Shown here: in pieces, positions 8,811-45,743 of the stretch
How the letters are laid out: every line of letters begins with the position of its first letter
Numbering within the stretch: the first letter of the stretch is position 1
NCBI GenBank assembly: GCA_963555705.1
Contig: OY743190.1
Location: 38,422,929 to 38,486,928 of the forward strand
From: Ligustrum vulgare
Lineage: Eukaryota > Streptophyta > Magnoliopsida > Lamiales > Oleaceae
Length of the DNA stretch: 64,000 bases
Direction of reading: 5' to 3'
The notes under the pieces: model-generated
What the model saw: the letters and a program-made list of their open reading frames with translations, nothing else
What the model was told of the DNA's origin: nothing
Database searches by the model: none
Position numbers and translations under genes: made by a program

Positions 8811-9145
8811 ATCCTACATGGCCTGAAGTAGGTCCCTGATGATAGTGGTCTAGGATGTGGGGCCTTGTTCCGTGTATGCCTGTTTTGAGGTAGCCCAGTC
8901 TGTTATGCCTATGTTAATACGTCTAGCCATATCCCTTAAATGGAAACAACAAAATATGTTCATACTTTCTCGATGGAAATGTTTAAGCAAAACATAGCAC
9001 ATAATCCACTCCAATGTAGGCAAAGACAAAAGATGAAACTTCTCATTAATAATTTTAAATTTCCTTCAAGTGAGGTTACAAATTGTAGAAACGTCAATAC
9101 TTGAATAAATAAAAATGCTAGACAAAATCCCATCTATCATATATT

Positions 9146-10044: not shown

Positions 10045-10056
10045 GCTCTGATACCA
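10045..10056 (-). promoter_or_regulatory. Primer-binding site (initiator tRNA-Met)
   Basis: On the minus strand this reads TGGTATCAGAGC, the complement of the 3' end of plant initiator tRNA-Met, three bases inside the 5' LTR. Confidence 0.9.
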
Positions 10057-10059
10057 CGC

Positions 10060-12354: not shown

Positions 12355-12359
12355 AAAGT

Positions 12360-21191: not shown

Positions 21192-21979
21192 TGATGTGTT
21201 TCAGACTCTCGATAATCGGAGTCATAGCAGGCTTGAAGGGAAAATTTAAATATTCAAGCCAAAACAAGAATTCAACAGGTTCGACGACCTTTGAAGATCA
21301 AACTGTGTCGAAAAGAACCAGAAAATTAAGCAGCAAGCCTTTTACGGCCGTAACATTTGGAATTACGGCCGTAACACAATTATCGCAAATTTGAGCAGAA
21401 CCTTCATTACGGCCATAAAGAATATGGTCACGGCCGTAAGTCTTAAACAGAAAGTCATTTACGACCGTAAATGAGTTCATCACGGCCGTAAATTTAATTT
21501 TCGGGATTTTCGGGGATTTTGATTATTTTTCCGTTTTTTAATTATTTGTTTGCCTATTTTATAATTTTAGTCTAAATAGAATTCTATTTTGAGTAAATTA
21601 GCGACTAGGGTTTTATTTTGCTTATTTATACGTTTTTTCCATTCATTGTAATTGAGACTTCGATTTTGATATAAATAGTTTTTATTGAGGATTCAATAAA
21701 AGTTATAGGCGGATTCCTATGTTTTTCGAACTTATCAAGAATATTTCTTGTGGCGTTCAAATATCGAACTTATCAAATATTTGCTAGAATATTTGTGGCG
21801 TTCAAATCAGAGACTTATCAAGGAGATTGGGCAAATCCTTGTGGCGTTTCGAAAGTCGTGGTTCTTTATTCCGAATCGTCGAGCCATCGCGTCGTGAATA
21901 TCGGGTCATAATTTATCCGTCCAACAACAACCTGAGTTCGGAACTTTCCGGCGTTTCTTCCGCTCTTCAAATCTCATCA
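21192..21979 (+). repeat. 5' LTR of element E
   Basis: From tgatgtgttt to atctcatca. It includes six copies of a palindrome around TTACGGCCGTAA (21342-21491), a TATA-like tataaata (about 21670), an aataaa (about 21695) and three imperfect tandem repeats of a unit ending gtggcgtt (21725-21855). Confidence 0.95.
21342..21491. repeat. Six TTACGGCCGTAA-type palindromes
   Basis: Copies at 21342, 21363, 21407, 21428, 21459 and 21480, each within one or two bases of the 12-bp palindrome. The right LTR keeps the array at about 46708-46858. The copies lie upstream of the LTR TATA-like box, the usual position for enhancer-type sites. Confidence 0.9.
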
Positions 21980-22633: not shown

Positions 22634-22745
22634 TGTAGCGACCAAGAATTTTTACGCATTTAATAATTATTTTAAAATTTAGAAAATCGTGTCGCTGCCA
22701 TCTCACTCATTTATTTTTCATTTTTACGTTAACGTCGTGACGCGT

Positions 22746-25700
22746 TGTAGCGCCCCGAGTTCAGTATACCCGATTCACTACGTCATTTTCTGTCTAAATT
22801 TTTCGAATAATATTTTTGCGGAAGAAATAATTGAAATTCATTTTTGGCAACATTAAATAAACTGTAATGGCCGCTAAAATTGAAAACATTTATGAAACCA
22901 TTTGAAATAGTAAATCGAACCATTAATATTGTAAAGAAATTGCCAATATCATAATTTCTCAAATAAATGAACTTCTCTAAATTATTCGATTGTTTGGAAA
23001 ATACGGAAATCATTAACGTCAAACTTTCAACCGTTCAACGATTATTGCCACCATCATTCATCGCTCGCCACCGTCTCCGAAATCTGCAAAACTGTTAAAA
23101 AGTAGGGTGAGTATTTCATGGGGAAAATACTCAGTAGACTCATCGCAAATTAATTTAATTTATAAGATGATTAAACACATAAATCCCGGCTCTTTATAAA
23201 ACGGGCATTGATAGAGCTTCTTTATAAAACGGCTCTTGATAAAACTCATATTGTGCATTACAGCACGGGACATATTTTGCAAATCATAAGCTCTTTGAAA
23301 ATAGCTCTTTGAAAACAGCTATTTGAAAACCATATACTTATAAAAACATTTTAATTATGCCAAGCATAATTTCTTTTGAAAGCATAACATAAGATAAGAT
23401 TGAAATCCTCATAAACATAGGGAGACACAAGAACTTTACCGAACTTAGGTGGCAAGAATTCTTATGCAGTAAAATCATAATAACAGTAAGTTTTCATCAT
23501 AACATAGGATAAAATCGAAATCCTCATAAATATAAGAATTTTACCGAACTTAGGTGGCAAGAATTCTTATGTAGTAAAATCATAATAACAGTAAGTTTTC
23601 ATCATAACATAGGATAAAATCGAAATCCTCATAAACATAAGAATTTTACCGAACTTAGGTGGTAAGAATTCTTATGTAGTAAGTATACCAAGCATAATTT
23701 TCTGAAATTCATAGGGATCAATTGCATCATAACATAAGATAGGATCGAAATCCTCATAAACATATGCGACAGGAATTTTACCGAACTTAGGTGGCAAATC
23801 CTCATAAACATATGGAAACATAGGAATTTTACCGAACTTCGTGGCAAATCCTCATAAACATAGGAGACACAAGAATGTTACCGAACTTAGGTGGCAAGAA
23901 TTCTTATGTGTAGCGCTACTAAAACTCCGGTCCCCTTAACATATCATAACTTATCATATGGGACCCAAAACAATCTTGGTAGATTGATTTCATAGCAATG
24001 ATCCAAAAAACATTTTCGTGAAGCATAGGGTATACTTACTTTTCGTAAAAACATAAAGTATATTTTCTTTTCATAAAAACATACTTACTTTTCATAACAT
24101 CATAAGGTATATTTACCTTTCATAAAAACATACTTGCTTTTCTTAAAAATTGACTTTCACAAGTCACATGACATTCATATGAAATCATAATTTAAATCAA
24201 TTAATAAGTGCGAGTCTACCTCAAATCCGACGAGTGCAAAGTTGAGCGGGAATGACTTCAATTTCTTTAAATTCTCCGTACGCTTCGTCTTAGCCAATAA
24301 GTCACTTTAGTATATCGAATATATAGTTCAAAATGATAAATTATATTTTGAGGACTAAAATTGATGTTTTGAAAGTTGAGGGACTAAAATGAATACTTTG
24401 AAAGTTGAGGGACTAAAATGAATACTTTTAAAACTTGGCTTAAAAGTAAATCAACAGTGACTGAAATAATAGATTTTGAAAATGAAAGGGCTGATTAAAA
24501 CTCATTTAAAACTTAAAGGACTGAAATGATAGTTTTTGAAAACATAGGGACTAATTTGAAAACCTTTTAAACTTGAGGACTAAAAGGTAATTTCCGAAAA
24601 CTTAAAATATTAAAATCAACATTTTCTCTCTCAAAACCACTCTCTGTCTCACGACCTAACCCTCTCTCACTCGCGATCGGAAAGACGGAAGAAGGTCACT
24701 GTCCGACGGAGTTGCCAGCGAATACTCCGGCGCAGGTGCGGCGAACTGCGGGAGGGGTGGTAGACTAAGTTTTTATGCGGTTTAGGTGCGAGATATAGCT
24801 AAACCGAGGCTTGGAGTTCGCGATTGGGTTTTGAGATTCCGGCGAAGGGAGCAGCGCTTGAGGTAAGTAACTGGTTTACGTTAAATCCTGGGTTTTTGGT
24901 TTGGATTTTGAGTGTTTGATTTATGATAGTGGGCAGAGTTTGGTGGTTGGACTGCGGTGTGGTGGTTGGGTGATTTCTTGAATTGAGGGCAGTGGACTGG
25001 TGATATTCATGATGCCGTCGAGGTTTGGTTGTGGCTGCGAAGGGTTGTAAGCGGTGAATTGATTTGATTGTGGTGATTGCTTCCGGTGGAGGTTCTGGTA
25101 TTGGGGGGGAAATTCTTGGTTGTGATGATGATTGGTGATGATGAAATGTGGTGATGCAGTGACAGTGTGAATTGTGATGAAGGAGGGCTGAAGCAGATAG
25201 TGGAATTTGGCAGCTTGGTGGCCGTGACTGTGGAGGTTGCAGGGATGGTGACGGTGATTGCAGGGATGAGTTTGGTGATCGTGGAGGCAGCGTACTGATG
25301 AGGATGATGGGTGCAGTGTGGATCATTGGTGATTGGCTACTGGTTGGCAAATTTGTGAGTTGGAGGTGGTAACTTGACAGTGATGATACTGATTGCAGTG
25401 TAAATGGTTTGTGCAGTAGTTGCTAAGATGGAGATGATAATGGTGATATAGTGGGTTGAATTTGATTTCTGAATGGTGATGAAGATGTATGCTTATATAT
25501 ATTGTATTGTGGAATCTAAGTACATGGAAGTGTGAGTTGTGCCATGAGTATTGAAATGAAGATGGGGTAGATGATGATAATGATGAAGATGCTTTGCTTG
25601 TACAATTATGGTTTAATATAATGAAGGTTCGTGGCTATGGATTGATGCTGATAATAATGGAGCTGAAAAGGAATTTGTGGGTGGTGGCTATGGCTTAGAA

Positions 25701-26040
25701 AATTGACTAACTTTGATTAAGAAATGTATTTAAAACAGATATATTTTGGACTGAAAATAAATCTGAGAATGGATGAATTTTGAGATAAAAATTGAATTAC
25801 ATATTTTGGACTTAAAATAATTTAATAAGGAATATTGGAATTAAAATGATTTTGAAAATGATACTTTAATTAAAATAATATAATTATAGAAATTCGGATT
25901 TTAATTTAAAATCGAACAAATTCGATATTTCTTGACTTGGCTAGACGAATTCGTCGCGGCATAAATTTCAAAACAATAGCGACTCAATTTTCTAAATATT
26001 AAAATAATTATTTATTGCATAAAAATTCTGGGTCGCTATA
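22746..26040 (-). repeat. 3' LTR of element A
   Basis: Plus-strand ends tgtagcgccc and gtcgctata. On the element strand the LTR therefore starts TATAGC and ends CTACA, a TA..CA pair rather than TG..CA. It contains tandem repeats of about 105 bp (23395-23910). A splice-donor-like GAG/GTAAGTA lies at 24863 on the cargo strand. Confidence 0.95.
23395..23910. repeat. LTR tandem repeats, about 105-bp period
   Basis: Repeated blocks containing ttaccgaacttaggtggcaa and gaaatcctcataaaca. The same array is at 30246-30761 (element A 5' LTR) and, shortened, at 36360-36815 and 43080-43540 (element B). Confidence 0.85.
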
Positions 26041-26054
26041 ATCTTACCCCCTTA
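26041..26054 (-). promoter_or_regulatory. Polypurine tract of element A
   Basis: On the minus strand TTAAGGGGGTAAGAT abuts the LTR start TATAGCGACC. Confidence 0.8.
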
Positions 26055-26280
26055 AAAATAATTTCGTCCTCGAAATTAAACTTACTTAATCTTATGATTT
26101 CTGAATACTTAATCAGAATCTCTTCTTTCTCTTATGTAGCATCATCGCTACCATATTTAACCCAACCATATTTAACCCACTGGACTTTGACTAAATGCAT
26201 CACTTTGTTTCTTAAGAACATGGACTTTTCTATAGACATATGTGTCTACTCATAAATTCTTCTGAATAAAAATGAAAATT
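26055..26280 (-). pseudogene. Remnant of Tekay-like pol 3' end in element A
   Basis: The plus-strand text from aatttcgtcctcgaaatt through ccactggactttgacta to aaattcttctgaat parallels 1665-1880 of the Tekay-like element (integrase C terminus and chromodomain-like tail), with deletions. It shows that the element derives from an autonomous gag-pol ancestor. Element B retains less of it. Confidence 0.8.
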
Positions 26281-26930
26281 CCCAATCGTATGTGATATTT
26301 CATCATATCTTGTATTACTCATGTAACCTGTCACTTATCATCGTATCATGTGACCTCAAATATTCGTATATATCTCTAAAATTTCAACAAATCTTTACTG
26401 ACATATCATATCATAATAAATTTTTCCTTTCTTATCATCGAAAATTCCCAAAATAATCAAAGAATTACCTGAATATTCTCTCTACGTAATATACCCAAAC
26501 ATATCAACATAATATTATCAACTTATCTTTCCAATATTTGTAACCCAAAAATTCAGTAAACAAATATCTCTCAAAACTAAGATTCTATACTTAAATGTCA
26601 CCACATTTCCTGCAAAGTATTTCTTTCACTTGTATATACGTATGAATTCTGATTCAATACGGTACTCATTTTACTTTCCACGTATCATCACACTATACCA
26701 TGATTATCATTATTAAAACAAAATATCAGTACCCATAATCCAAGAAAATATTCCAAATCTCCAATCAAATCTCCTTTATCGATAAAATTTAACAGCGCAT
26801 TACTTCTTGTCTCCTCTTTTCATTAAAATAATCCTGCGCTTTCTTGCTGGTCACAACATCACGCGGATTCACTCAGATCCTTTACGCTTTTAAATAGTTC
26901 ATGCTGGGAAGAGGTTAGATTCATCAAACA
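26281..26930 (+). other. Non-coding segment upstream of the cargo ORFs (element A)
   Basis: About 650 bp of AT-rich sequence largely shared with element B (about 39055-39708), with no ORF. It holds a TATA-like tttaaata at 26888-26895, about 36 bp before the ATG at 26931. Whether it comes from the element or from the captured source cannot be decided here. Confidence 0.5.
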
Positions 26931-27482
26931 ATGGATATCATCCTTTCTAACATTCGCAAGTATTATTCCAATCTTCCTATGAATGATCTGAGAAAGATCT
27001 ATAGAATAAGACTCGAAAGGTTGAGGTTGCTGATGACTCATGGTATTCCAGAAGATGTTCGCTGGTTGATCGAAGCAAAGGTTCGACTATCTGGTGAATT
27101 ACCATCAACATTTCCAAAGCACATGCCTGGTTTAGGCAAAAGCACGTTTGCAAAGAAACGAAGAGCAAAAAGACTGGGTGGTTGCTACAAATGTGCTCGT
27201 TGGAACTGTAATACTCGTTGCAAATCAGTAGGATATTCTTCTACTAATCGGGATGATAAAATCGAATTCATAAAGGGTGGACTGAGTAAAGAGTCTTTGG
27301 ATGATATTCGACTGACTCTTGAGACGTACCCAAGTGGTTATGTACAACGTGAACTTCTCTCCTTATACGCTCAGTTTAACGAGGACAAAAATCGTTATAG
27401 TCTCCAAAATATAATATCGAAAGATCCTGTTTGCCAGTCTGTTTTACAAAATGAGGCTTCTGGCAGTTCAGCAATGATATAA
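26931..27482 (+). CDS. Cargo ORF 1: basic four-cysteine protein resembling viral nucleic-acid-binding proteins (element A)
   Basis: A 183-residue intact ORF. Residues 1-65 look helical. Residues 70-82 form a basic run (KSTFAKKRRAKRLGGCYKC begins at 70). Cys85, 88, 93 and 97 give a C-x2-C-x4-C-x3-C cluster, and the last 85 residues are charged without a known motif. The order 'Gly-Lys-Ser-Thr, Arg/Lys run, Cys pair' is that of carlavirus-type cysteine-rich nucleic-acid-binding proteins, but this protein is longer and its cysteine spacing differs, so the assignment is tentative. It lies 290 bp upstream of LOG on the same strand, antisense to the retrotransposon, with its own tttaaata box. Alternatives: an unrecognised plant zinc-finger protein or a retroelement-specific protein. 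Confidence 0.6.
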   Translation: MDIILSNIRKYYSNLPMNDLRKIYRIRLERLRLLMTHGIPEDVRWLIEAKVRLSGELPSTFPKHMPGLGKSTFAKKRRAKRLGGCYKCARWNCNTRCKSVGYSSTNRDDKIEFIKGGLSKESLDDIRLTLETYPSGYVQRELLSLYAQFNEDKNRYSLQNIISKDPVCQSVLQNEASGSSAMI

Positions 27483-27772
27483 GGTAAATCTTTTTAAAAT
27501 ATTTTGCTGCTTTCTTTCACGCGTTTTGGAAATAAAATATATTTTTCTTTTCTCGAGGTTTGATAAAGCTGGAAATAAATCACCGAAAGGTGATATCTTT
27601 GATAAAATAGTCAAAAGTTGGCCGATTTTGTCAAAAAGTGAATCTTTACTTTTTCAGAATCAATCAAAAACAGTAAATTTTTTTCCGGCTTTAAATAGCC
27701 AAACATATTTCATAGTTCAGGCATCCCAAAATCACATCTTCTTCGTAAGTTTTCCCTTCTTTACTATCAAAG
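27483..27772 (+). promoter_or_regulatory. Intergenic region with TATA-like box before LOG (element A)
   Basis: 290 bp. ggctttaaatagcc, an almost perfect palindrome around tttaaata (27690-27697), lies about 75 bp before the LOG ATG. The same core (gcttttaaatag) precedes cargo ORF 1. It could be a promoter for each gene or, if the source was an RNA virus, a repeated subgenomic start signal. Confidence 0.45.
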
Positions 27773-28426
27773 ATGGAAGCACCAAAACTTCGACAAATCA
27801 AAACTATTTGTGTATTTTGTGGATCAAAAGTAGGGAAAGGTTTCGGTTATCTAGAAGCGGCTGTAGATCTTGGAAAGAAACTGGGGGAAAAAGGTATCAC
27901 TCTTGTGTATGGGGGTGGTAGCAGTGGTCTAATGGGTTGTGTTTCCCAATCTGCTCTTGCAGAGAAATCAAAAGTAATCGGTGTCATACCTGTCCCTTTG
28001 GTAGATGTTGCAGGCAAAACACGAGGGCATGAAGTTCAAACCTTATTCATCCATGAACGCATAACTTGTATGCTATATGGTTCTGATGCCTTTATAGCCC
28101 TGCCCGGAGGTTTTGGTACCTTAGAAGAAATCTTTAACATTACCTCGTGGGCTCAACTAGATCTCCATACTAAGCCTATTGGGCTTCTGAATGTTAACAA
28201 TTTCTTTGATGGTTTGTTAACCTTTCTTGATTATGCTGTGGAACAGTGATTCATCTCTCCATTTTCCAGAAGGCTTCTTATTTCTGCTCCTACTATTGAT
28301 GAACTACTGGATAAGCTGCAGTCATATATCTCAATACAAGATCCAGCAGGGGTTAAGATAGATTGGTCACAAGGAAGGGGAATCAAGCGAAAATGGAGTC
28401 CGGTTAATGTAAACTTAACTCTTTGA
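27773..28426 (+). pseudogene. LOG: LOG-type cytokinin riboside 5'-monophosphate phosphoribohydrolase, nonsense copy (element A)
   Basis: The same 218-codon frame as the intact copy at 40601-41254, but codon 159 is TGA (28247-28249) where element B has GGA. The product would stop after 158 residues, losing the C-terminal helices. Both signature motifs are before the stop: GGGSSGLMG (47-55) and PGGFGTLEE (111-119). LOG enzymes release active cytokinin bases from nucleotide precursors in the cytosol. Apart from the stop there is one replacement (Phe92 here, Ser92 in B); other differences are silent. No introns, unlike typical plant LOG genes. Confidence 0.92.
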
Positions 28427-28435
28427 ATCTTAGAA

Positions 28436-28655
28436 TAGGTGGGGGTAGAGTACGGAGTATTCTCACTCTCGAGACACCCCTCCATTTACTAGGATTTCCT
28501 TAATGTTTAAATCTTGTGTGTACTTCAAAGATCCAAGGTGGTAGATTACGGAGTATTCTTACTCTCGAAACACACCTCTTTGAAGGTTTTCTCTTTATAT
28601 CCTCAAAAGATCAGAGGTGGTAGGATACGGCTACTCCGGAAACACATCTCTCATT
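28436..28655 (+). repeat. Three hairpin repeats after LOG (element A)
   Basis: Units at 28436-28483, 28535-28580 and 28613-28655. Shared core GGTGGTAGnnTACGGAGTA, then an ACTCtCGAaACACacCT-type arm, giving outer GGTG/CACC and inner GAGTA/TACTC pairing. The third unit is shorter. Conserved in element B. Confidence 0.8.
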
Positions 28656-28724
28656 CTGAGGATCTTTCCATGTTTTTCTCTTATGCTTTCGTGTGTTTCA
28701 TGTATTTCCTTTCCAGTGTGACTC

Positions 28725-28800
28725 TTGTGTGTTCTCCTTATGAGAAAATAATAAAATCTCTGCTATCAGCTACTAAATCTCGTTTGTGATGTAAATGAAC
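28725..28800 (+). terminator. Possible polyadenylation region after the cargo (element A)
   Basis: TG-rich cttgtgtgttctcc is followed by aataataaaat (about 28747) and then tcgtttgtgatgt, an order that fits a plant 3' end signal. Inferred only. Confidence 0.4.
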
Positions 28801-29581
28801 TTGCATGTCTAAACTTAATTCCTTTAGTAGATGCTTATCATATTATGCTCTTAATTCCAAATGATAAAATTCTGGATAGAGTCTCCCTTGTAATTTGGAC
28901 TTATCCAAACCATAAGCATACTTCATAACTCACAATAATAAATAACTCCACATTTGATCACAACGATCTAAAAATATTGAAAATGATTCCAACACTTCAA
29001 TATCATCAAAAATATCCCATAATTCAATTCATAATTCCTCAACATAGAAATTTCAAATCATATTTTTCAATATCATAATATCACTTATAATCTTAACATA
29101 TAATCAAATTCTTTCCGTTGACTTCTCTTACTTAGTGCCATGTCTAAAATCAATTATGCAAAGTCCATCTAGGGTTCATCATTTCTAACTCGAGGACAAA
29201 AATTATTTAAAAATCATTCTTAAATCATATTATTCCCATTATGCTCAACACTCGTTTTCTTTCTAAAAAAAAAATTCTCATAATCATACATTAAAGCATA
29301 TAAGTTATGACAAAGCATAACAACATCATTATTTTCGAAGAAATACATTCTTATTTCTCATAAATCATAAGTATCCGAAATACTCTTCATTCTTTCTCAT
29401 AAATCAATAAAATGAGTATTCGAAATACTGAAATAACTTTAAACATCATAAACTTCTTTACCTCGGAGTTGGTGGAACGAATGATGGCAGTGGCAATCTT
29501 CATCAATAAAATTTTATAATGGAAAATATTTCTTGAAAATTCTTTTTGAAAATTTTTTCCAGTCTACAGAAACGCAGACTA
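28801..29581 (-). other. Element A internal region: leader and gag-start remnant
   Basis: No ORF. The part from about 29130 to 29581 parallels the Tekay-like leader (9658-10044), including tgccatgtctaaaat (former gag start), aaagtccat and ttacctcggagttggtgga. Confidence 0.7.
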
Positions 29582-29594
29582 GCTCTGATACCAA
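29582..29594 (-). promoter_or_regulatory. Primer-binding site of element A
   Basis: On the minus strand TTGGTATCAGAGC, complementary to initiator tRNA-Met, two bases inside the 5' LTR. Confidence 0.9.
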
Positions 29595-29596
29595 CT

Positions 29597-32500
29597 TGTA
29601 GCGCCCCGAGTTCAGTATACCCGATTCACTACGTCATTTTCTGTCTAAATTTTTCGAATAATATTTTTGCGGAAGAAATAATTGAAATTCATTTTTGGCA
29701 ACATTAAATAAACTGTAATGGCCGCTAAAATTGAAAACATTTATGAAACCATTTGAAATAGTAAATCGAACCATTAATATTGTAAAGAAATTGCCAATAT
29801 CATAATTTCTCAAATAAATGAACTTCTCTAAATTATTCGATTGTTTGGAAAATACGGAAATCATTAACGTCAAACTTTCAACCGTTCAACGATTATTGCC
29901 ACTATCATTCATCGCTCGCCACCGTCTCCGAAATCTGCAAAACTGTTAAAAAGTAGGGTGAGTATTTCATGGGGAAAATACTCAGTAGACTCATCGCAAA
30001 TTAATTTAATTTATAAGATGATTAAACACATAAATCCCGGCTCTTTATAAAACGGGCATTGATAGAGCTTCTTTATAAAACGGCTCTTGATAAAACTCAT
30101 ATTGTGCATTACAGCACGGGACATATTTTGCAAATCATAGGCTCTTTGAAAATAGCTCTTTGAAAACAGCTCTTTGAAAACCATATACTTATAAAAACAT
30201 TTTAATTATGCCAAGCATAATTTCTTTTGAAAGCATAACATAAGATAAGATTGAAATCCTCATAAACATAGGGAGACACAAGAACTTTACCGAACTTAGG
30301 TGGCAAGAATTCTTATGCAGTAAAATCATAATAACAGTAAGTTTTCATCATAACATAGGATAAAATCGAAATCCTCATAAATATAAGAATTTTACCGAAC
30401 TTAGGTGGCAAGAATTCTTATGTAGTAAAATCATAATAACAGTAAGTTTTCATCATAACATAGGATAAAATCGAAATCCTCATAAACATAAGAATTTTAC
30501 CGAACTTAGGTGGTAAGAATTCTTATGTAGTAAGTATACCAAGCATAATTTTCTGAAATTCATAGGGATCAATTGCATCATAACATAAGATAGGATCGAA
30601 ATCCTCATAAACATATGCGACAGGAATTTTACCGAACTTAGGTGGCAAATCCTCATAAACATATGGAAACATAGGAATTTTACCGAACTTCGTGGCAAAT
30701 CCTCATAAACATAGGAGACACAAGAATGTTACCGAACTTAGGTGGCAAGAATTCTTATGTGTAGCGCTACTAAAACTCCGGTCCCCTTAACATATCATAA
30801 CTTATCATATGGGACCCAAAACAATCTTGGTAGATTGATTTCATAGCAATGATCCAAAAAACATTTTCGTGAAGCATAGGGTATACTTACTTTTCGTAAA
30901 AACATAAAGTATATTTTCTTTTCATAAAAACATACTTACTTTTCATAACATCATAAGGTATATTTACCTTTCATAAAAACATACTTGCTTTTCTTAAAAA
31001 TTGACTTTCACAAGTCACATGACATTCATATGAAATCATAATTTAAATCAATTAATAAGTGCGAGTCTACCTCAAATCCGACGAGTGCAAAGTTGAGCGG
31101 GAATGACTTCAATTTCTTTAAATTCTCCGTACGCTTCGTCTTAGCCAATAAGTCACTTTAGTATATCGAATATATAGTTCAAAATGATAAATTATATTTT
31201 GAGGACTAAAATTGATGTTTTGAAAGTTGAGGGACTAAAATGAATACTTTGAAAGTTGAGGGACTAAAATGAATACTTTTAAAACTTGGCTTAAAAGTAA
31301 ATCAACAGTGACTGAAATAATAGATTTTGAAAATGAAAGGGCTGATTAAAACTCATTTAAAACTTAAAGGACTGAAATGATAGTTTTTGAAAACATAGGG
31401 ACTAATTTGAAAACCTTTTAAACTTGAGGACTAAAAGGTAATTTCCGAAAACTTAAAATATTAAAATCAACATTTTCTCTCTCAAAACCACTCTCTGTCT
31501 CACGACCTAACCCTCTCTCACTCGCGATCGGAAAGACGGAAGAAGGTCACTGTCCGACGGAGTTGCCAGCGAATACTCCGGCGCAGGTGCGGCGAACTGC
31601 GGGAGGGGTGGTAGACTAAGTTTTTATGCGGTTTAGGTGCGAGATATAGCTAAACCGAGGCTTGGAGTTCGCGATTGGGTTTTGAGATTCCGGCGAAGGG
31701 AGCAGCGCTTGAGGTAAGTAACTGGTTTACGTTAAATCCTGGGTTTTTGGTTTGGATTTTGAGTGTTTGATTTATGATAGTGGGCAGAGTTTGGTGGTTG
31801 GACTGCGGTGTGGTGGTTGGGTGATTTCTTGAATTGAGGGCAGTGGACTGGTGATATTCATGATGCCGTCGAGGTTTGGTTGTGGTTGCGAAGGGTTGTA
31901 AGCGGTGAATTGATTTGATTGTGGTGATTGCTTCCGGTGGAGGTTCTGGTATTGGGGGGGAAATTCTTGGTTGTGATGATGATTGGTGATGATGAAATGT
32001 GGTGATGCAGTGACAGTGTGAATTGTGATGAAGGAGGGCTGAAGCAGATAGTGGAATTTGGCAGCTTGGTGGCCGTGACTGTGGAGGTTGCAGGGATGGT
32101 GACGGTGATTGCAGGGATGAGTTTGGTGATCGTGGAGGCAGCGTACTGATGAGGATGATGGGTGCAGTGTGGATCATTGGTGATTGGCTACTGGTTGGCA
32201 AATTTGTGAGTTGGAGGTGGTAACTTGACAGTGATGATACTGATTGCAGTGTAAATGGTTTGTGCAGTAGTTGCTAAGATGGAGATGATAATGGTGATAT
32301 AGTGGGTTGAATTTGATTTCTGAATGGTGATGAAGATGTATGCTTATATATATTGTATTGTGGAATCTAAGTACATGGAAGTGTGAGTTGTGCCATGAGT
32401 ATTGAAATGAAGATGGGGTAGATGATGATAATGATGAAGATGCTTTGCTTGTACAATTATGGTTTAATATAATGAAGGTTCGTGGCTATGGATTGATGCT

Positions 32501-32891
32501 GATAATAATGGAGCTGAAAAGGAATTTGTGGGTGGTGGCTATGGCTTAGAAAATTGACTAACTTTGATTAAGAAATGTATTTAAAACAGATATATTTTGG
32601 ACTGAAAATAAATCTGAGAATGGATGAATTTTGAGATAAAAATTGAATTACATATTTTGGACTTAAAATAATTTAATAAGGAATATTGGAATTAAAATGA
32701 TTTTGAAAATGATACTTTAATTAAAATAATATAATTATAGAAATTTGGATTTTAATTTAAAATCGAACAAATTCGATATTTCTTGACTTGGCTAGACGAA
32801 TTCGTCGCGGCATAAATTTCAAAACAATAGCGACTCAATTTTCTAAATATTAAAATAATTATTTATTGCATAAAAATTCTGGGTCGCTATA
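29597..32891 (-). repeat. 5' LTR of element A
   Basis: 3295 bp, same length as 22746-26040. The differences I see are single substitutions (for example ccactatc versus ccaccatc, ggttgcg versus ggctgcg, aaatttgga versus aaattcgga). Outer flank is cgcgt. Confidence 0.95.
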
Positions 32892-32896
32892 CGCGT

Positions 32897-35723: not shown

Positions 35724-38700
35724 TGTAGCGCCCCGAGTTCCGTATACCCGATTCACTACGTCATTTTCTGTCTAAATTTTTCGAATAATATTTTTGCGGA
35801 AGAAATAATTGAAATTCATTTTTGGCAACATTAAATAAACTGTAATGGCCGCTAAAATTGAAAACATTTATGAAACCATTTGAAATAGTAAATCGAACCA
35901 TTAATATTGTAAAGAAATTGCCAATATCATAATTTCTCAAATAAATGAACTTCTCTAAATTATTCGATTGTTTGGAAAATACGGAAATCATTAACGTCAA
36001 ACTTTCAACCGTTCAACGATTATTGCCACCATCATTCATCGCTCGCCACCGTCTCCGAAATCTGCAAAACTGTTAAAAAGTAGGGTGAGTATTTCATGGG
36101 GGAAATACTCAGTAGACTCATCGCAAATTAATTTAATTTATAAGATGATTAAACACATAAATCCCGGCTCTTTATAAAACGGGCATTGATAGAGCTTCTT
36201 TATAAAACAGCTCTTGATAAAACTCATATTGTGCATTACAGCACGGGACATATTTTACAAATCATAGGCTCTTTGAAAATAGCTCTTTGAAAACAGTTCT
36301 TTGAAAACCATATACTTATAAAACATTTTAATTATGCCAAGCATAATTTCTTTTGAAAGCATAACATAAGATAGGATTGAAATCCTCATAAACATAAATA
36401 GACACAAGAACTTTACCGAACTTAGGTGGCAAGAATTCTTATGCAGTAAAATCATAATAACAGTAAGTTTTCATCATAACATAGGATAATATCGAAATCC
36501 TCGTAAACATAAGAATTTTACCGAACTTAGGTGGCAAGAATTCTTATGTAGTAAGTCATAATAACAGTAAGATCATAATAACAGTAAGTATACCAAAACA
36601 TAATTCATGAAATTCATAGGGATCATTTCCATCATAACATAAGATAGGATCGAAATCCTCATAAACATACGCGACAGGAATTTTACCGAACTTAGGTGGT
36701 AAATCCTCATAAACATATGGAAAGGCAGGAATTTTACCGAACTTAGGTGGTAAATCCTCATAAACTTATGGAGACACAGAATTCTACCGAACTTAGGTGG
36801 TAAGAATTCTTATGCGTAGCAATGATCCAAAACATATAAAACATTATCGTAAAAACATAGGGTATACTTACTTTTCATAAAACATACTTAATTTTCTTGA
36901 AAATTGACTTTCACAAGTCACATGACATTTATATGAAATCATAATTTAAATCAATTAATAAGTGCGAGTCTACCTCAAATCCGACGAGTGCAAAGTTGAG
37001 CGGGAATGACTTCAATTTCTTTAAATTCTCCGTACGCTTCGTCTTAGCCAATAAGTCACTTTAGTCTATCGAATATATAGTTCAAAATGATAAATTATAA
37101 TTTGAGGACTGAAATTGATGTTTTGAAAGTTGAGGGACTAAAATAGATATTTTGAAAGTTGAGGGATTAAAATGAATACTTTTGATAGTTGAGGGACTAA
37201 AATGAATACTTTTAAAACTTGAGCTTAAAAGTAAATCAGCAGGGACTGAAGTGATCAGATTTTGAAAATGAAAGGGCTGATTAAAACTCATTTAAAACTT
37301 AAGGGCTGAAATTAAAAAGATTTAAAGCTGAAAGGACTGAATTGAAACAAATTAAAACTTCAGGACTATAGTTGCAAATTTCCGAAAATTAAAATATTAA
37401 AATAGATTATTCTCTCTCTATCACTACACTCTCTCTCTCGTCATTTCTCTCAACTGGAAGGTTCAGAGGCGATGAGAGCACGCGAGGCCTCTCACCCATT
37501 TCCGGCGCTACAACCGGCGATTGGCCGGCGGAACGTTGCCGCATGGTGGCGGCAAGAGGCGGCCAAGGAGTGTTTCAAATTTGAGGGATTGGTTGCGAGT
37601 TTTGAGTGCGAAACCGTGTGCGATCGTGGCTTGATTTCACGATTTTCCGGCGAGTTTACCGGCGGTCGAGGTAGGTAAGTATTTGGGATAACTTATTCTG
37701 GGTTTTCAGTTTTGATTTTGGGTTTGATTTTGGTACAACTTTATACTGAATTGGAGTTGGACAGTAGGCGGTTTGTGGGTGGCGTGTGACGGTTTGGGAA
37801 ATGGTGGTGGTTGCGCTACAGCAGTGTTGGTGATGGATATGGACGGTGCTGCAGTTGGTTTGATTTGAGGTTCGATTGATGGGTGGTGACTGTGGTTGAG
37901 TTAATTTCCGGTGATGGTTTGATCGATGATAAAATGATGAATACTGTGGTTGATTGCAATGAGGTGAGGGTGATTCAGCAGTGATGGTGTCTGCTTGATC
38001 AAAATTGGTTGAGGCAGTGTTTGGTTTGTTCGATTGGGAGTCATGGAGATGATTTCTTGAATTGAGCAGTGCATTGATAGTGAATTTGCTGTGAATTGGT
38101 GGTGTCCGGTGATGATGATGCTGATTTGAAAATGATGGTGAATCAACAGCTTTGGTGAATTGGATGTTTAACATTACCCTTTTGTTGATGGTTGGAGACT
38201 GATTGCAGATTGAGCTGCACTGGGGTGGTGAGGATGGAAGGCAACATCTGTGGTGGCTGCATTGGTGGTTGCAGCATAGGTGCTTATAGAAATGGCCGGT
38301 TTTGGAGTTGAGGCAAAGCTTGTGGATTGATGATGATTATAGTGATTGTCGTGATGGTGATTTATTGGAGAGAAAAGTGGGAGACATGGGGAATAATTAG
38401 TTGGTTTGGTGATGATGATGTCTTGAGGATGAAAGTGCTCAAAAGGAAAGAAAAAAAAGAAAATAAAATGATTAATGGGAACATGGGGAATATGAGTAGA
38501 GTAGGTGCTTAATAATGTAATAAAGATGAAAAACGTGGGAAGTAATCCATTGAAAATTAGACTAATTTTGATTAAGAAATGTGTTTAAAACAGATATACT
38601 TTGGACTGAAAATAATTTGAGAATAAATAAATTTTTGAGATAAAATTGAATTACGTATTTGGACTTGAAATAATTTGAATAAAGAAAATTGAGATATTTT

Positions 38701-38934
38701 AATAAATTTGGAATTAAAAATGATTTTGAAAATAATACTTTGAATAAATAATTAAAATAACATAATTTTAGAAATTCGGATTTTAATTTAAAATCGAACA
38801 AATTCGATATTTCTTGACTTGGCTAGACGAATCCGTCGCGGCATTAATTTCAAAATAATAAATGAAATAGTAGCGACACAATTTTCTAAATATTAAAATA
38901 ATTATTTATTGCATAAAAATTCTGGGTCGCTATA
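35724..38934 (-). repeat. 3' LTR of element B
   Basis: Plus-strand ends tgtagcgccc and gtcgctata (TA..CA type on the element strand). It holds shortened tandem repeats at 36360-36815. A 68-codon frame at 37472-37678 precedes AG/GTAAGT at 37675 on the cargo strand, the counterpart of the donor-like site in A. Confidence 0.95.
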
Positions 38935-38948
38935 ATCTTACCTCCTTA
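38935..38948 (-). promoter_or_regulatory. Polypurine tract of element B
   Basis: On the minus strand AAGGAGGTAAGAT abuts the LTR start TATAGCGACC. Confidence 0.75.
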
Positions 38949-39708
38949 AAATAATTTCGTCCTCGAAATTAAACTTACTTAATCTTATAATTTCTGAATA
39001 CTTAATCAGAATCTCTTCTTCTTATCATCGAATATTCTCAAAATAATCAAAACAATTCCCAATCGTATGTAAAAATTTCATCATATCTTGTAGTATTCAT
39101 GTAACTTGTCACTTATCATCGTATCATGTGACCTCAATTATTCGTATATATCTCTAAAATTTCAACAAATCTTTACTGACATATCGTATCATAATAATTT
39201 TTTTTCCTTTCTTATCATCGAAAATTCCAAAAATAATCCAAGAATTACCTGAATATCTTCTCTACGTAATATACCCAAACATATCAACATAATATTATCA
39301 ACTTATCTTTCCAATATTTGTAACCCAAAATTCAGAAAACAAATATCTCCCAAAACTAAGATTCTATACTTAAATGTCACCACATTTCCTGCAAAGTATT
39401 TCTTTCACTTGTATATACGTATTAACTCTAATTCGATACGGTCTCCAATTCACTTTCCACGTATCAACACACTATACCATGATTATCATTATTATAACAA
39501 AATATCAGTACCCATAATCCAAGAAAATATTCCAAATCTCCAATCAAATCTCCTTTATCGATAAAATTTAACAGCGCATTACTTCTTGTCTCCTCTTTTC
39601 ATTAAAATAATCCTGCGCTTTCTTGCTGGTCACAACATCACGCGGATTCACTCAGATCCTTTACGCTTTTAAATAGTTCATGCTGAGAAGAGGTTGAATC
39701 ATCAAACA
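38949..39708 (+). other. Non-coding segment upstream of the cargo ORFs (element B)
   Basis: A short pol 3' remnant (to about 39025), then AT-rich sequence matching 26281-26930. TATA-like tttaaata at 39668-39675, about 35 bp before the ATG at 39709. Confidence 0.5.
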
Positions 39709-40260
39709 ATGGATATCATTCTTTCTAACATTCGCAAGTATTATTCCAGTCTTCCTATGAATGATCTGAGAAAGATCTATAAAATAAGGCTCGAAAGATT
39801 GAGGTTGCTAATGGCTCATGATATTCCAGAAGATGTTCGCTGGCTGATAGAAGCAAAGGTTCGACTATCTGGTGAATTACCATCAACATTTCCAAAACAT
39901 ATGCCTGGTTTAGGCAAAAGCACGTTCGCAAAGAAACGAAGAGCAAAAAGACTGGGTGGTTGCTACAAATGTGCTCGTTGGAACTGTAATACACGTTGCA
40001 AATCAGTAGGATATTCTTCTACTAATCGGGATGATAAAATCGAATTCATAAAGGGTGGACTGAGTAAGGAGTCTTTGGATGATATTCGACTGACTCTTGA
40101 GACGCACCCAAGTGGTTATGTACAACGTGAACTTCTCTCCTTATACGCTCAGTTTAACGAGGACAAAAATCGTTATAATCTCCAAAATATAATATCGAAA
40201 GATCCTGTTTGCCAGTCTGTTTTACAAAATGAGGCTTCTGGCAGTTCAGCAATGATATAA
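39709..40260 (+). CDS. Cargo ORF 1: basic four-cysteine protein resembling viral nucleic-acid-binding proteins (element B)
   Basis: A 183-residue intact ORF; the ATG at 39709 is chosen because it matches the element A copy (an upstream in-frame TTG is not a credible start). It has the same basic run at 70-82 and Cys85/88/93/97 cluster as the A copy, all unchanged. By eye the two copies differ at 17 codons, 11 of them silent; the six replacements lie outside the basic and cysteine region. Function unknown; nucleic-acid binding is inferred from composition and from the resemblance to carlavirus-type cysteine-rich proteins. Next gene: LOG, 340 bp downstream. Confidence 0.6.
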   Translation: MDIILSNIRKYYSSLPMNDLRKIYKIRLERLRLLMAHDIPEDVRWLIEAKVRLSGELPSTFPKHMPGLGKSTFAKKRRAKRLGGCYKCARWNCNTRCKSVGYSSTNRDDKIEFIKGGLSKESLDDIRLTLETHPSGYVQRELLSLYAQFNEDKNRYNLQNIISKDPVCQSVLQNEASGSSAMI

Positions 40261-40316
40261 GGTAAATCTTTTTAAAATATTTTGCTGCTTTCTTTCACGC
40301 GTTTTGGAAATAAAAT

Positions 40317-40398
40317 ATATTTTCCTTTCTCGAGGTTTGATAAAGCTGGAAATAAATATATTTTCCTTTCTCGAGGTTTGATAAAGCTGGAAATAAAT
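40317..40398 (+). repeat. 41-bp tandem duplication between the cargo ORFs (element B)
   Basis: The unit starting tatattttcctttctcgagg is present twice in B and once in A. It lies upstream of the tttaaata box (about 40518) and changes the spacing of the LOG upstream region. Confidence 0.9.
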
Positions 40399-40600
40399 AT
40401 TAAATCGCCGAAAGGTGACAGCCTCGATACGATAAAAATATTCAAAAGTGGGCTGATTTTGTCAAAAGTAAATCTTTACTTTTTCAGAATCAATCAAAAA
40501 CAGTAAATTTTTCCGGCTTTAAATAGCCAAACATATTTCATAGTTCAGGCATCCCAAAATCACATCTTCTTCGTAAGTTTTCCCTTCTTTACTATCAAAG

Positions 40601-41254
40601 ATGGAAGCACCAAAACTTCGACAGATCAAAACTATTTGTGTATTTTGTGGATCAAAAGTAGGGAAAGGCTTCGGTTATCTAGAAGCGGCTGTAGATCTTG
40701 GAAAGAAACTGGGGGAAAAAGGTATCACTCTTGTATATGGGGGTGGTAGCAGTGGTCTAATGGGTTGTGTTTCCCAATCTGCTCTTGCAGAGAAATCAAA
40801 AGTAATCGGTGTCATACCTGTCCCTTTGGTAGATGTTGCAGGCAAAACACGAGGGCATGAAGTTCAAACCTTATCCATCCATGAACGCATAACTTGTATG
40901 CTATATGGTTCTGATGCCTTTATAGCCCTGCCCGGAGGTTTTGGTACCTTAGAAGAAATCTTTAACATTACCTCGTGGGCTCAACTAGATCTCCATACTA
41001 AGCCTATTGGGCTTCTGAATGTTAACAATTTCTTTGATGGTTTGTTAACCTTTCTTGATTATGCTGTGGAACAGGGATTCATCTCTCCATTTTCCAGAAG
41101 GCTTCTTATTTCTGCTCCTACTATTGATGAACTACTGGATAAGCTGCAGTCATATATCTCAATACAAGATCCAGCAGGAGTTAAGATAGATTGGTCGCAA
41201 GGAAGGGGAATCAAGCGAAAATGGAGTCCGGTTAATGTAAATTTAACTCTTTGA
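40601..41254 (+). CDS. LOG: LOG-type cytokinin riboside 5'-monophosphate phosphoribohydrolase, intact (element B)
   Basis: 217 residues, the usual LOG length, single exon. It hydrolyses cytokinin nucleotides (such as iPRMP) to the free active base and ribose 5-phosphate, in the cytosol. Visible: VFCGS (14-18), GGGSSGLMG (47-55), Arg96 in HERITCM, and the signature PGGxGTxxE as PGGFGTLEE (111-119). Near Arg96 most plant LOGs have a Lys-Ala-Glu sequence; here Ile-Thr-Cys is found, so activity should not be taken for granted. A tttaaata box lies about 76 bp upstream; three hairpin repeats and an AATAAA-like signal follow. Antisense to the retrotransposon and bracketed by its LTRs, so it is cargo, not a host locus. 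Confidence 0.93.
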   Translation: MEAPKLRQIKTICVFCGSKVGKGFGYLEAAVDLGKKLGEKGITLVYGGGSSGLMGCVSQSALAEKSKVIGVIPVPLVDVAGKTRGHEVQTLSIHERITCMLYGSDAFIALPGGFGTLEEIFNITSWAQLDLHTKPIGLLNVNNFFDGLLTFLDYAVEQGFISPFSRRLLISAPTIDELLDKLQSYISIQDPAGVKIDWSQGRGIKRKWSPVNVNLTL

Positions 41255-41263
41255 ATCTTAGAA

Positions 41264-41482
41264 TAGGTGGGGGTAGAGTACGGAGTATTCTTACTCTCGA
41301 GACACCCCTCCATTTACTAGGATTTCCTTAATGTTTAAATCTTGTGTGTACTTCAAAGATTCCAGGTGGTAGATTACGGAGTATTCTTACTCTCGAAACA
41401 CACCTCTTTGAAGGTTTCTTTATTTCCTCAAAAGATCAGAGGTGGTAGGATACGGCTACTCCGGAAACACATCTCTCATTCT
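41264..41482 (+). repeat. Three hairpin repeats after LOG (element B)
   Basis: Units at about 41264-41310, 41364-41408 and 41440-41482, matching the array in element A. The first starts only about ten bases after the LOG stop codon, so they would be in the 3' untranslated region of a LOG transcript. Confidence 0.8.
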
Positions 41483-41549
41483 GAGGATCTTTCCATGTTT
41501 TTCTCTTATGCTTTCGTGTGTTTCATGTATTCCTTTCCAGTGTGACTCT

Positions 41550-42430
41550 TGTGTGTTCTCCTTATGAGAAAATAATAAAATTTCTGCTATCATCTACTAA
41601 ATCTCGTTTGTGATGTAAATGATCTTGCATGTCTAACCTTAATTCCTTTAGTGGATGCTTATCATATTATGCTCTTAATTCCAAATGATAAAATTCTGGA
41701 CAGAGTCTCCCTTGTAATTTGGACTTATTCCAAACCATAAGCATACTTCATAACTCACAATAATAAATAACTCCACATTTGATCACAACGATCTAAAAAT
41801 ATTGAAAACGATTCCAACACTTCAATATCATCAAAATATCCCATAATTCAATTCATAATTCCTCAACATAGAAATTTCAAATCATATTTTTCAATATCAC
41901 AATATTACTTCCTTTCATACCTTAATTGGCTCAAAAGTTACTCATACTTATAAATATATGCCATAAATCATATTCCCAAAATTTATTCACAAAGCCAAAC
42001 TTCATAATAAATTTCTCTTCAACATAGAGGCATAATAAATTAACTCAACATAATATCCATTACTTAATTCTCAATAAAATCATATTATTCCCATTATGCT
42101 CAACACTCGTTTTCTTTAAAAAATTTCTCATAATCATACATTAAAGCATATAAGTTATGACAAAGCATAACAACATCATTATTTTCGAAGAAATACATTC
42201 TTATTTCTCATAAATCATAAGTATCCGAAATACTCTTCATTCTTTCTCATAAATCAATAAAATGAGTATTCGAAATACTGAAATAACTTTAAACATCATA
42301 AACTTCTTTACCTCGGAGTTGGTGGAACGAATGATGGCAGTGGCAATCTTCATCAATAAAATTTTATAATGGAAAATATTTCTTGAAAATTCTTTTTGAA
42401 AATTTTTCCAGTCTACAGAAACGCAGACTA
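41550..42430 (-). other. Element B internal region: cargo 3' end and element leader
   Basis: aataataaaat (about 41571) is the possible polyadenylation signal of the cargo. After that comes AT-rich sequence without ORFs. The last 350 bp match the Tekay-like leader and end at the PBS. B has sequence at about 41910-42080 that differs from A. Confidence 0.6.
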
Positions 42431-42443
42431 GCTCTGATACCAA
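42431..42443 (-). promoter_or_regulatory. Primer-binding site of element B
   Basis: On the minus strand TTGGTATCAGAGC, the initiator tRNA-Met complement, two bases inside the 5' LTR. Confidence 0.9.
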
Positions 42444-42445
42444 CT

Positions 42446-45400
42446 TGTAGCGCCCCGAGTTCCGTATACCCGATTCACTACGTCATTTTCTGTCTAAATT
42501 TTTCGAATAATATTTTTGCGGAAGAAATAATTGAAATTCATTTTTGGCAACATTAAATAAACTGTAATGGCCGCTAAAATTGAAAACATTTATGAAACCA
42601 TTTGAAATAGTAAATCGAACCATTAATATTGTAAAGAAATTGCCAATATCATAATTTCTCAAATAAATGAACTTCTCTAAATTATTCGATTGTTTGGAAA
42701 ATACGGAAATCATTAACGTCAAACTTTCAACCGTTCAACGATTATTGCCACCATCATTCATCGCTCGCCACCGTCTCCGAAATCTGCAAAACTGTTAAAA
42801 AGTAGGGTGAGTATTTCATGGGGGAAATACTCAGTAGACTCATCGCAAATTAATTTAATTTATAAGATGATTAAACACATAAATCCCGGCTCTTTATAAA
42901 ACGGGCATTGATAGAGCTTCTTTATAAAACAGCTCTTGATAAAACTCATATTGTGCATTACAGCACGGGACATATTTTACAAATCATAGGCTCTTTGAAA
43001 ATAGCTCTTTGAAAACAGTTCTTTGAAAACCATATACTTATAAAACATTTTAATTATGCCAAGCATAATTTCTTTTGAAAGCATAACATAAGATAGGATT
43101 GAAATCCTCATAAACATAAATAGACACAAGAACTTTACCGAACTTAGGTGGCAAGAATTCTTATGCAGTAAAATCATAATAACAGTAAGTTTTCATCATA
43201 ACATAGGATAATATCGAAATCCTCGTAAACATAAGAATTTTACCGAACTTAGGTGGCAAGAATTCTTATGTAGTAAGTCATAATAACAGTAAGATCATAA
43301 TAACAGTAAGTATACCAAAACATAATTCATGAAATTCATAGGGATCATTTCCATCATAACATAAGATAGGATCGAAATCCTCATAAACATACGCGACAGG
43401 AATTTTACCGAACTTAGGTGGTAAATCCTCATAAACATATGGAAAGGCAGGAATTTTACCGAACTTAGGTGGTAAATCCTCATAAACTTATGGAGACACA
43501 GAATTCTACCGAACTTAGGTGGTAAGAATTCTTATGCGTAGCAATGATCCAAAACATATAAAACATTATCGTAAAAACATAGGGTATACTTACTTTTCAT
43601 AAAACATACTTAATTTTCTTGAAAATTGACTTTCACAAGTCACATGACATTTATATGAAATCATAATTTAAATCAATTAATAAGTGCGAGTCTACCTCAA
43701 ATCCGACGAGTGCAAAGTTGAGCGGGAATGACTTCAATTTCTTTAAATTCTCCGTACGCTTCGTCTTAGCCAATAAGTCACTTTAGTCTATCGAATATAT
43801 AGTTCAAAATGATAAATTATAATTTGAGGACTGAAATTGATGTTTTGAAAGTTGAGGGACTAAAATAGATATTTTGAAAGTTGAGGGATTAAAATGAATA
43901 CTTTTGATAGTTGAGGGACTAAAATGAATACTTTTAAAACTTGAGCTTAAAAGTAAATCAGCAGGGACTGAAGTGATCAGATTTTGAAAATGAAAGGGCT
44001 GATTAAAACTCATTTAAAACTTAAGGGCTGAAATTAAAAAGATTTAAAGCTGAAAGGACTGAATTGAAACAAATTAAAACTTCAGGACTATAGTTGCAAA
44101 TTTCCGAAAATTAAAATATTAAAATAGATTATTCTCTCTCTATCACTACACTCTCTCTCTCGTCATTTCTCTCAACTGGAAGGTTCAGAGGCGATGAGAG
44201 CACGCGAGGCCTCTCACCCATTTCCGGCGCTACAACCGGCGATTGGCCGGCGGAACGTTGCCGCATGGTGGCGGCAAGAGGCGGCCAAGGAGTGTTTCAA
44301 ATTTGAGGGATTGGTTGCGAGTTTTGAGTGCGAAACCGTGTGCGATCGTGGCTTGATTTCACGATTTTCCGGCGAGTTTACCGGCGGTCGAGGTAGGTAA
44401 GTATTTGGGATAACTTATTCTGGGTTTTCAGTTTTGATTTTGGGTTTGATTTTGGTACAACTTTATACTGAATTGGAGTTGGACAGTAGGCGGTTTGTGG
44501 GTGGCGTGTGACGGTTTGGGAAATGGTGGTGGTTGCGCTACAGCAGTGTTGGTGATGGATATGGACGGTGCTGCAGTTGGTTTGATTTGAGGTTCGATTG
44601 ATGGGTGGTGACTGTGGTTGAGTTAATTTCCGGTGATGGTTTGATCGATGATAAAATGATGAATACTGTGGTTGATTGCAATGAGGTGAGGGTGATTCAG
44701 CAGTGATGGTGTCTGCTTGATCAAAATTGGTTGAGGCAGTGTTTGGTTTGTTCGATTGGGAGTCATGGAGATGATTTCTTGAATTGAGCAGTGCATTGAT
44801 AGTGAATTTGCTGTGAATTGGTGGTGTCCGGTGATGATGATGCTGATTTGAAAATGATGGTGAATCAACAGCTTTGGTGAATTGGATGTTTAACATTACC
44901 CTTTTGTTGATGGTTGGAGACTGATTGCAGATTGAGCTGCACTGGGGTGGTGAGGATGGAAGGCAACATCTGTGGTGGCTGCATTGGTGGTTGCAGCATA
45001 GGTGCTTATAGAAATGGCCGGTTTTGGAGTTGAGGCAAAGCTTGTGGATTGATGATGATTATAGTGATTGTCGTGATGGTGATTTATTGGAGAGAAAAGT
45101 GGGAGACATGGGGAATAATTAGTTGGTTTGGTGATGATGATGTCTTGAGGATGAAAGTGCTCAAAAGGAAAGAAAAAAAAAGAAAATAAAATGATTAATG
45201 GGAACATGGGGAATATGAGTAGAGTAGGTGCTTAATAATGTAATAAAGATGAAAAACGTGGGAAGTAATCCATTGAAAATTAGACTAATTTTGATTAAGA
45301 AATGTGTTTAAAACAGATATACTTTGGACTGAAAATAATTTGAGAATAAATAAATTTTTGAGATAAAATTGAATTACGTATTTGGACTTGAAATAATTTG

Positions 45401-45657
45401 AATAAAGAAAATTGAGATATTTTAATAAATTTGGAATTAAAAATGATTTTGAAAATAATACTTTGAATAAATAATTAAAATAACATAATTTTAGAAATTC
45501 GGATTTTAATTTAAAATCGAACAAATTCGATATTTCTTGACTTGGCTAGACGAATCCGTCGCGGCATTAATTTCAAAATAATAAATGAAATAGTAGCGAC
45601 ACAATTTTCTAAATATTAAAATAATTATTTATTGCATAAAAATTCTGGGTCGCTATA
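42446..45657 (-). repeat. 5' LTR of element B
   Basis: 3212 bp; equals 35724-38934 except for one extra A in a homopolymer near 45180, as far as I can read. Outer flank cctag. Confidence 0.95.
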
Positions 45658-45743
45658 CCTAGGAACTCGGGGCGTTACATAAATCGTAGTGATGAGAGTC
45701 ATTATAGGCGTGATCCTAAACCTAGGGATAGAATCGGGGTTAA

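Follow-up and report, generated by a model that had tools for sequence, protein, structure and literature searches.

Two recent non-autonomous retrotransposon insertions in Ligustrum vulgare carry, in antisense, a LOG-like gene and a gene matching viral nucleic-acid-binding protein profiles

Two Athila-like elements were reportedly recognised by Steinbauerova et al. in 2011 as similar to LOGL4. LOG-like (YgdH) domains within Ty3/gypsy elements of Citrus and Populus have been published (Alvarado-Marchena et al., 2022; PMC9289625). Additional antisense genes beside the 3' long terminal repeat (LTR) are described for Grande, RIRE2 and Retand, where the aORF-3R frames hold TRP28, SMC and a few other domains in the accessible parts of the reports (PMC7264820; PMC11963269), and the antisense gene of Grande is described as having its own promoter and encoding a nuclear protein (PMC7264820). 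The origin and function of most such additional, often antisense, open reading frames (ORFs) of plant LTR retrotransposons are called unknown (PMC7264820), and the Retand study goes no further than conjecturing that they might stem from an unknown virus (PMC11963269). In bdelloid rotifers, LTR elements likewise possess accessory genes common to several retroelement groups, with ORF3 types spanning retroelement classes and env derived from paramyxoviruses (PMC5408684); genes and hosts differ from those reported here. In this study, we analysed a stretch of 64,000 nucleotides of Ligustrum vulgare DNA (the window; all coordinates are window positions), which has a plant-like GC content of 37% and contains nested LTR elements. 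Two of these, A and B, carry the same two adjacent genes, one matching the Viral_NABP profile (NABP) and one related to plant LONELY GUY (LOG) proteins.

We propose, with confidence evenly balanced for and against, that the NABP-LOG pair is an accessory effector module of retroelements that has been exchanged between gypsy lineages, is kept by selection and sits in A and B within shells devoid of gag-pol. An earlier, sequence-only reading of the locus had held that a mobile source of active cytokinin would be a novel cargo; LOG-like domains in gypsy elements are, as noted, already published. A NABP partner, the orientation of the LOG ORF, a non-autonomous carrier, pocket changes and a C-terminal tail are unmentioned in the accessible part of the Citrus and Populus report, and the screen of 121 angiosperm genomes described there used reverse transcriptase as its marker (PMC9289625), so that elements without this gene, like A and B, would be missed. 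From the aORF-3R elements A and B differ by their NABP and LOG genes in a gag-pol-less shell. Among the papers listed by a literature search thin on subscription journals, none described a NABP-LOG pair, an antisense placement of it, Carla_C4 genes in plant retrotransposons or the LxLxL tail. The features of A and B are as follows.

22746-32891, minus strand: element A, a complete non-autonomous LTR retrotransposon, by LTR pair, target-site duplication (TSD), primer-binding site (PBS) and polypurine tract (PPT)
22746-26040, minus strand: 3' LTR of A (element orientation), by LTR alignment
29597-32891, minus strand: 5' LTR of A (element orientation), by LTR alignment
22741-22745 and 32892-32896: TSD of A, CGCGT, perfect 5 bp on both sides
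29582-29593, minus strand: PBS of A, TGGTATCAGAGC
26041-26053, minus strand: PPT of A, AAGGGGGTAAGAT
26048-26254, minus strand: decayed integrase C-terminal tail of A, adjoining the PPT, by tblastn to the integrase of element E (described below)
26931-27482, plus strand: NABP gene of A, 183 residues, by Viral_NABP/Carla_C4 profile
27773-28249, plus strand: LOG-like gene of A, with a premature stop after codon 158; homology runs on to 28423
35724-45657, minus strand: element B, a complete non-autonomous LTR retrotransposon, by LTR pair, TSD, PBS and PPT
35724-38934, minus strand: 3' LTR of B (element orientation), by LTR alignment
42446-45657, minus strand: 5' LTR of B (element orientation), by LTR alignment
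35719-35723 and 45658-45662: TSD of B, CCTAG, perfect 5 bp
42431-42442, minus strand: PBS of B, TGGTATCAGAGC
38935-38947, minus strand: PPT of B, AAGGAGGTAAGAT
39709-40260, plus strand: NABP gene of B, 183 residues from the ATG, by Viral_NABP/Carla_C4 profile
40518-40526, plus strand: TATA-like box TTTAAATAG upstream of the LOG-like gene of B, by pattern match only
40601-41254, plus strand: LOG-like gene of B, full-length, 217 residues

In both elements NABP precedes the LOG-like gene, both are on the plus strand, and each is a single ORF. The PBS, PPT and integrase tail lie on the minus strand, which rules out a plus-strand sense for A and B; thus both cargo genes are antisense to their carrier. 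With paired LTRs, TSD, PBS and PPT, and no functional gag-pol, A and B are non-autonomous LTR retrotransposons, and on their structural completeness the sequence-only reading was confirmed. The shared PBS is presumably of the initiator-Met type.

The NABP proteins of A and B score 30.6 and 30.9 bits against Viral_NABP (PF05515) and 27.0 and 26.9 bits against Carla_C4 (PF01623), where the Pfam gathering cut-offs are 23 and 20.9 bits. No other profile was matched by the two copies, and a generic plant zinc finger was rejected; the earlier label of a zinc-finger-like gene gives way to that of a virus-type protein. On profile evidence, NABP is assigned to the Viral_NABP/Carla_C4 family of nucleic-acid-binding, cysteine-rich proteins (CRPs) of carlavirus/vitivirus type. 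In a scan of 34 members of the plant family, Viral_NABP was matched by 33 and Carla_C4 by 31 at E<=0.01, and SHQ1 weakly by two. The family alignment shows conservation of a basic stretch (KKRRAKR), behind which comes a Cys finger, and good conservation of the C-terminal part. The order of basic stretch and Cys finger is shared with the CRPs of carlaviruses, allexiviruses and mandariviruses (PMC12172455), from which the NABP of A and B differs in being encoded by a retroelement, in its 183 residues and in the conserved C-terminal part outside the Pfam match. Flexivirus CRPs are described as silencing suppressors, and that of Chrysanthemum virus B as a transcription factor causing hyperplasia (PMC12172455). 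A protein search yielded 352 NABP relatives, of which the best 120 are considered here; those named are from Orobanche, Striga, Populus, Acer and Xanthoceras. A tree of the listed proteins joins the copies of A and B to Orobanche and Striga with support 0.90, and the next larger clade has 0.95. No relative was found in the PDB by profile, the single match having an E-value of 0.73.

The word viral might invert the history, if NABP began as a gene of retroelements or plants and passed from there to the flexiviruses. The plant family is large and conserved and reaches beyond the Pfam match, and no viral sequences were recovered that would set the direction of transfer, since the IMG/VR viral contigs gave no NABP relatives. 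Against this, CRPs are described in both Alphaflexiviridae and Betaflexiviridae (PMC12172455), and the plant copies are repetitive and, in A, B and a further locus (L025, see below), lie inside retroelements. We consider such an inverted history possible, if on the unlikely side.

The second cargo gene was modelled from the intact copy in B with good confidence (predicted local distance difference test, pLDDT, 83.5), and its best PDB match is the plant LONELY GUY protein At2g37210 (2a33; 51% identity, template-modelling score 0.95 by target length). The fold, the PGGxGTxxE motif and the catalytic Arg and Glu are shared with plant LONELY GUY, from which the protein of B differs by its identity of about 50%, the replacement of Lys100 and Glu125, a basic/LxLxL-type tail and its single-ORF gene. 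At the prenyl site, Met96, His97, Lys100, Glu125 and Trp129 read Ile, His, Ile, Asn and Trp in B, so that the residue set is incomplete. Lys100 and Glu125 are both assigned to the prenyl site, the former also to the adenine site (PMC4979012). Of 7230 LOG relatives found, the best 120 were examined, and the changes recur in them: the catalytic pair is nearly always present (Arg99 in 112, Glu122 in 118), the two pocket residues seldom (Lys100 in 8, Glu125 in 7), whereas all four are kept in 120 of 120 canonical LOGs, a control made of the best 120 of 7997 matches to At2g37210 and biased by this query towards the LOG1/3/4 type. Reevesia pubescens accounts for 38 of the 120 relatives, whose locus tags name 16 chromosomes; further named sources are Diplodiscus, Populus, Xanthoceras, Diospyros, Primulina and Parasponia.

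The C-terminus of these relatives is equally distinctive. LxLxL, the core of EAR repression motifs, ends within four residues of the C-terminus in 92 of the 120, compared with none of the 120 canonical proteins and with 4 per 120 on average, and never more than 9, when the last 20 residues were shuffled (200 shuffles). Three adjacent Lys/Arg residues within the last 20 accompany it in 82 of the 92, again against 0/120 in the canonical set; the sequence KKRK is similar to a nuclear signal. A midpoint-rooted tree of 157 proteins, built without four relatives longer than 232 residues and without 80 of the 120 canonical proteins, places the 40 canonical proteins in one clade (support 1.0) and 113 of the 117 non-canonical ones, among which the LOG of B is counted, on the other side (support 0.905); the remaining four, three Lys-bearing Xanthoceras proteins and P0161, fall on the canonical side. 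The LOG of B thus appears to belong to a diverged lineage that has relatives across several eudicot families, and does not look like a fresh capture of a host LOG. In IMG/VR, 24 LOG-related loci were found with at most 41% identity (over 53 residues); they were taken as LOG-like proteins of prokaryotic viruses and set aside.

These data bear on whether the protein is an ordinary cytokinin-activating enzyme and the element, as had been claimed, a mobile source of active cytokinin. The intact fold and PGGxGTxxE motif in B and the retained catalytic Arg and Glu are in keeping with the claim. The loss of Lys100 and Glu125, in B as in most listed relatives, speaks against it, as does the basic/EAR-like tail of most listed relatives. 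The pocket changes argue for an altered specificity or a non-enzymatic role; the mobile source of active cytokinin is unproven, and we regard it as rather unlikely.

Between A and B, the NABP genes differ by 6 nonsynonymous and 11 synonymous codon changes (NG86 nonsynonymous and synonymous distances, dN 0.014 and dS 0.097), and the LOG-like genes by 2 nonsynonymous changes, one of them the stop, and 6 synonymous ones. The synonymous excess gives p=1.8e-4 for NABP, p=0.0035 for LOG and 2.3e-6 combined, in a simple binomial test on site numbers that carries no correction for transition bias. This excess counts against the view that the pair is passive cargo, that is, that template switching brought in a retrogene of a host LOG along with some stray viral gene, neither having a role for the element, and so do the relatives in several eudicot families, with their conserved motifs and the unusual tail they have in common. 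Gene capture by LTR retrotransposons is established (PMC7264820), the LOG of A is broken, and both genes are single ORFs, all of which would fit passive cargo. The same holds for the non-coding parts of the cassette, whose similarity between A and B roughly equals that of the coding parts, so that nucleotide identity alone does not reveal constraint. On balance, passive carriage appears improbable.

The lineage of the shell was approached through a third element of the window, E, whose features are:

1-12355, minus strand: element E, a chromovirus-like gag-pol element; its left LTR is cut at the window edge
7818-8507: gag of E
2973-3806: RNase H of E
1656-2969: integrase of E
10045-10056: PBS of E

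E carries a gag with a zinc knuckle as well as RNase H and integrase domains, and the tail of its integrase matches Chromo below the curated cut-off (E 0.0016 for the tail alone, 0.036 for the whole ORF). Four queries (the gag, RNase H and integrase of E and the integrase of L025) detected no gag-pol in A or B apart from an integrase tail. The earlier statement that gag-pol is absent therefore needs a small amendment: A retains a decayed tail with 51% identity to residues 372-438, the last 67, of the E integrase (E 2.7e-10, tblastn), and B a stub (E 0.02, same query). Next to the PBS and the PPT, segments of A are 74% and 73% similar to E. By these similarities the shell of A and B appears to be a chromovirus-like gypsy element stripped of gag-pol. 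E and the shell may belong to the Tekay/Del lineage.

Relatives of each cargo gene occur in asterids and rosids, and some observations concern the pair itself. Three of the 120 listed NABP proteins (P0017, P0019 and P0022, Orobanche gene models) continue into the later part of a LOG, with 49-56% identity to the LOG of B. Equal contig sizes were noted for the NABP and LOG entries P0012 and P0141 (8723) and P0015 and P0220 (4511); these hint at linkage, and shorter coincidences may be due to chance. The only NABP locus found in the genome contigs searched, L025 (3330 bp), has a gypsy integrase ORF at 194-1594 (rve, H2C2) followed on the same strand by NABP at 1787-2347. Its integrase is only 25% identical to that of E, so that two distinct gypsy lineages seem to carry NABP, one of them in sense and the other in antisense. 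The end of the L025 integrase, VNGHRLKP, is presumably Athila/Tat-like. The contig is titled as a Nomurabacteria metagenome-assembled genome (a GTDB species genome) and yet looks like a plant gypsy retrotransposon; it is probably plant contamination.

Further TATA-like TTTAAATAG boxes, again pattern matches only, lie at 26889, 27690 and 39668, and the distance from box to start codon is 41-42 bp for NABP and 83 bp for LOG. Downstream of LOG, three imperfect repeats with TACGGAGTATTCT-like cores were seen by eye at 28430-28660. No structured RNA was indicated in the 3' region of the cassette, its folding (z -0.32) being no better than that of shuffled sequences, and 22000-46000 gave no Rfam match. 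A third copy of the cassette was not found within the window by tblastn.

The nesting of A and B records how they arrived, with two further features:

22634-22745, 32897-35723 and 45663-45679, plus strand: solo LTR C, about 2.96 kb, older than and related to the LTRs of A and B
21192-47346, plus strand: outer element D, enclosing C, A and B, with LTRs at 21192-21979 and 46559-47346

C has the TSD TAAAC/TAAAT with one mismatch; D has LTRs 94.3% identical, the TSD ACACC and a PBS-like TGGTATCAGAAC at 21982. A and B are separate minus-strand insertions into C, A 112 bp after its start and B 17 bp before its end. Over 3296 aligned columns the LTR pair of A shows 5 mismatches, and over 3212 that of B shows a single 1-base indel without substitutions; identity within each element thus exceeds 99.8%, compared with 83-91% for the main pieces that align between A and B. 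With their distinct TSDs and sites, these values identify A and B as recent insertions from two subfamilies, and the cassette has, as previously claimed, moved at least twice. That A and B, close together and with the same cassette, stem from a segmental duplication of one insertion, an outcome set beforehand as refuting that claim, is practically excluded by outer flanks that are not duplicated, by the different TSDs and sites in C and by the LTR divergence.

Some observations on these LTRs stand apart. The target sites of A and B sit in palindromic hexamers (ACGCGT and CCTAGG), and both elements entered the same related solo LTR in opposite orientation to it; only two cases are at hand for either observation. 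The LTRs of A and B hold long open frames that differ from each other and have a high content of His, Pro, Ser and Thr (24802-25422 and 37659-38336, minus strand); these lack a Pfam match and lie in the LTR part that does not align between A and B. Three solo LTRs of another family are found at 4601-7304, 48825-51464 and 53872-56623, with perfect 5-bp TSDs (AGTAC, AGCAT and ACCCC); E hosts the first of them, at a point between gag and RNase H.

How an effector module of this kind might work can be outlined. A separate TATA-type promoter would drive each cargo gene. Like the viral CRPs, NABP would be active in the nucleus, where it would bind nucleic acid and either dampen silencing or switch on growth genes. 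The LOG-like protein would enter the nucleus, bind a purine nucleotide and recruit TOPLESS-type corepressors via its tail; alternatively, it might still release a cytokinin-like base. As a result, cells permissive for replication of the element, either dividing or de-repressed, would be favoured, and gag-pol would be supplied in trans by elements of the E type. It is tempting to speculate further that the module is old and exchangeable, that it combines an RNA-virus-type silencing suppressor or transcription factor (NABP) with a nuclear, LOG-derived sensor or cleaver of purine nucleotides that recruits corepressors, and that it acts on host silencing and on cytokinin and meristem programmes, the non-autonomous elements spreading because they carry it in exchange for borrowed gag-pol. 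This extended version we offer as tentative.

Several points weigh against an effector module. The NABP structure model is of low confidence (pLDDT 53.7), and the viral kinship thus rests on sequence profiles. In L025, NABP, at 67% identity to that of B, exceeds the Viral_NABP cut-off and reaches 20.4 of the required 20.9 bits for Carla_C4, and the remaining kilobase past it contains no LOG, so that the pair is not obligatory. The best 120 of the 352 NABP matches include none from Reevesia. The LOG gene, intact in B, where it had been called full-length, is already lost in A by its premature stop. The tail of B, VNVNLTL, is a degenerate LxLxL, the strict motif is missing from 28 of the best 120 LOG relatives, and some of these relatives, such as the Lys-bearing Xanthoceras proteins, may be host genes. 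The query bias of the canonical control and the similarity of the non-coding cassette DNA, both mentioned above, belong here as well.

In summary, one of the additional ORFs of plant LTR retrotransposons clearly matches the profile of a protein family of RNA viruses, and the gene beside it encodes a relative of a hormone enzyme that shows a specific and testable remodelling. As both genes are small and intact in B, each step could be tested in a model plant. If the proposal is true, transposons would use virus-style effectors on plant hormone and silencing pathways, and the spread of relatives over flowering-plant families suggests that mobile elements may keep these genes as tools that act on their host.

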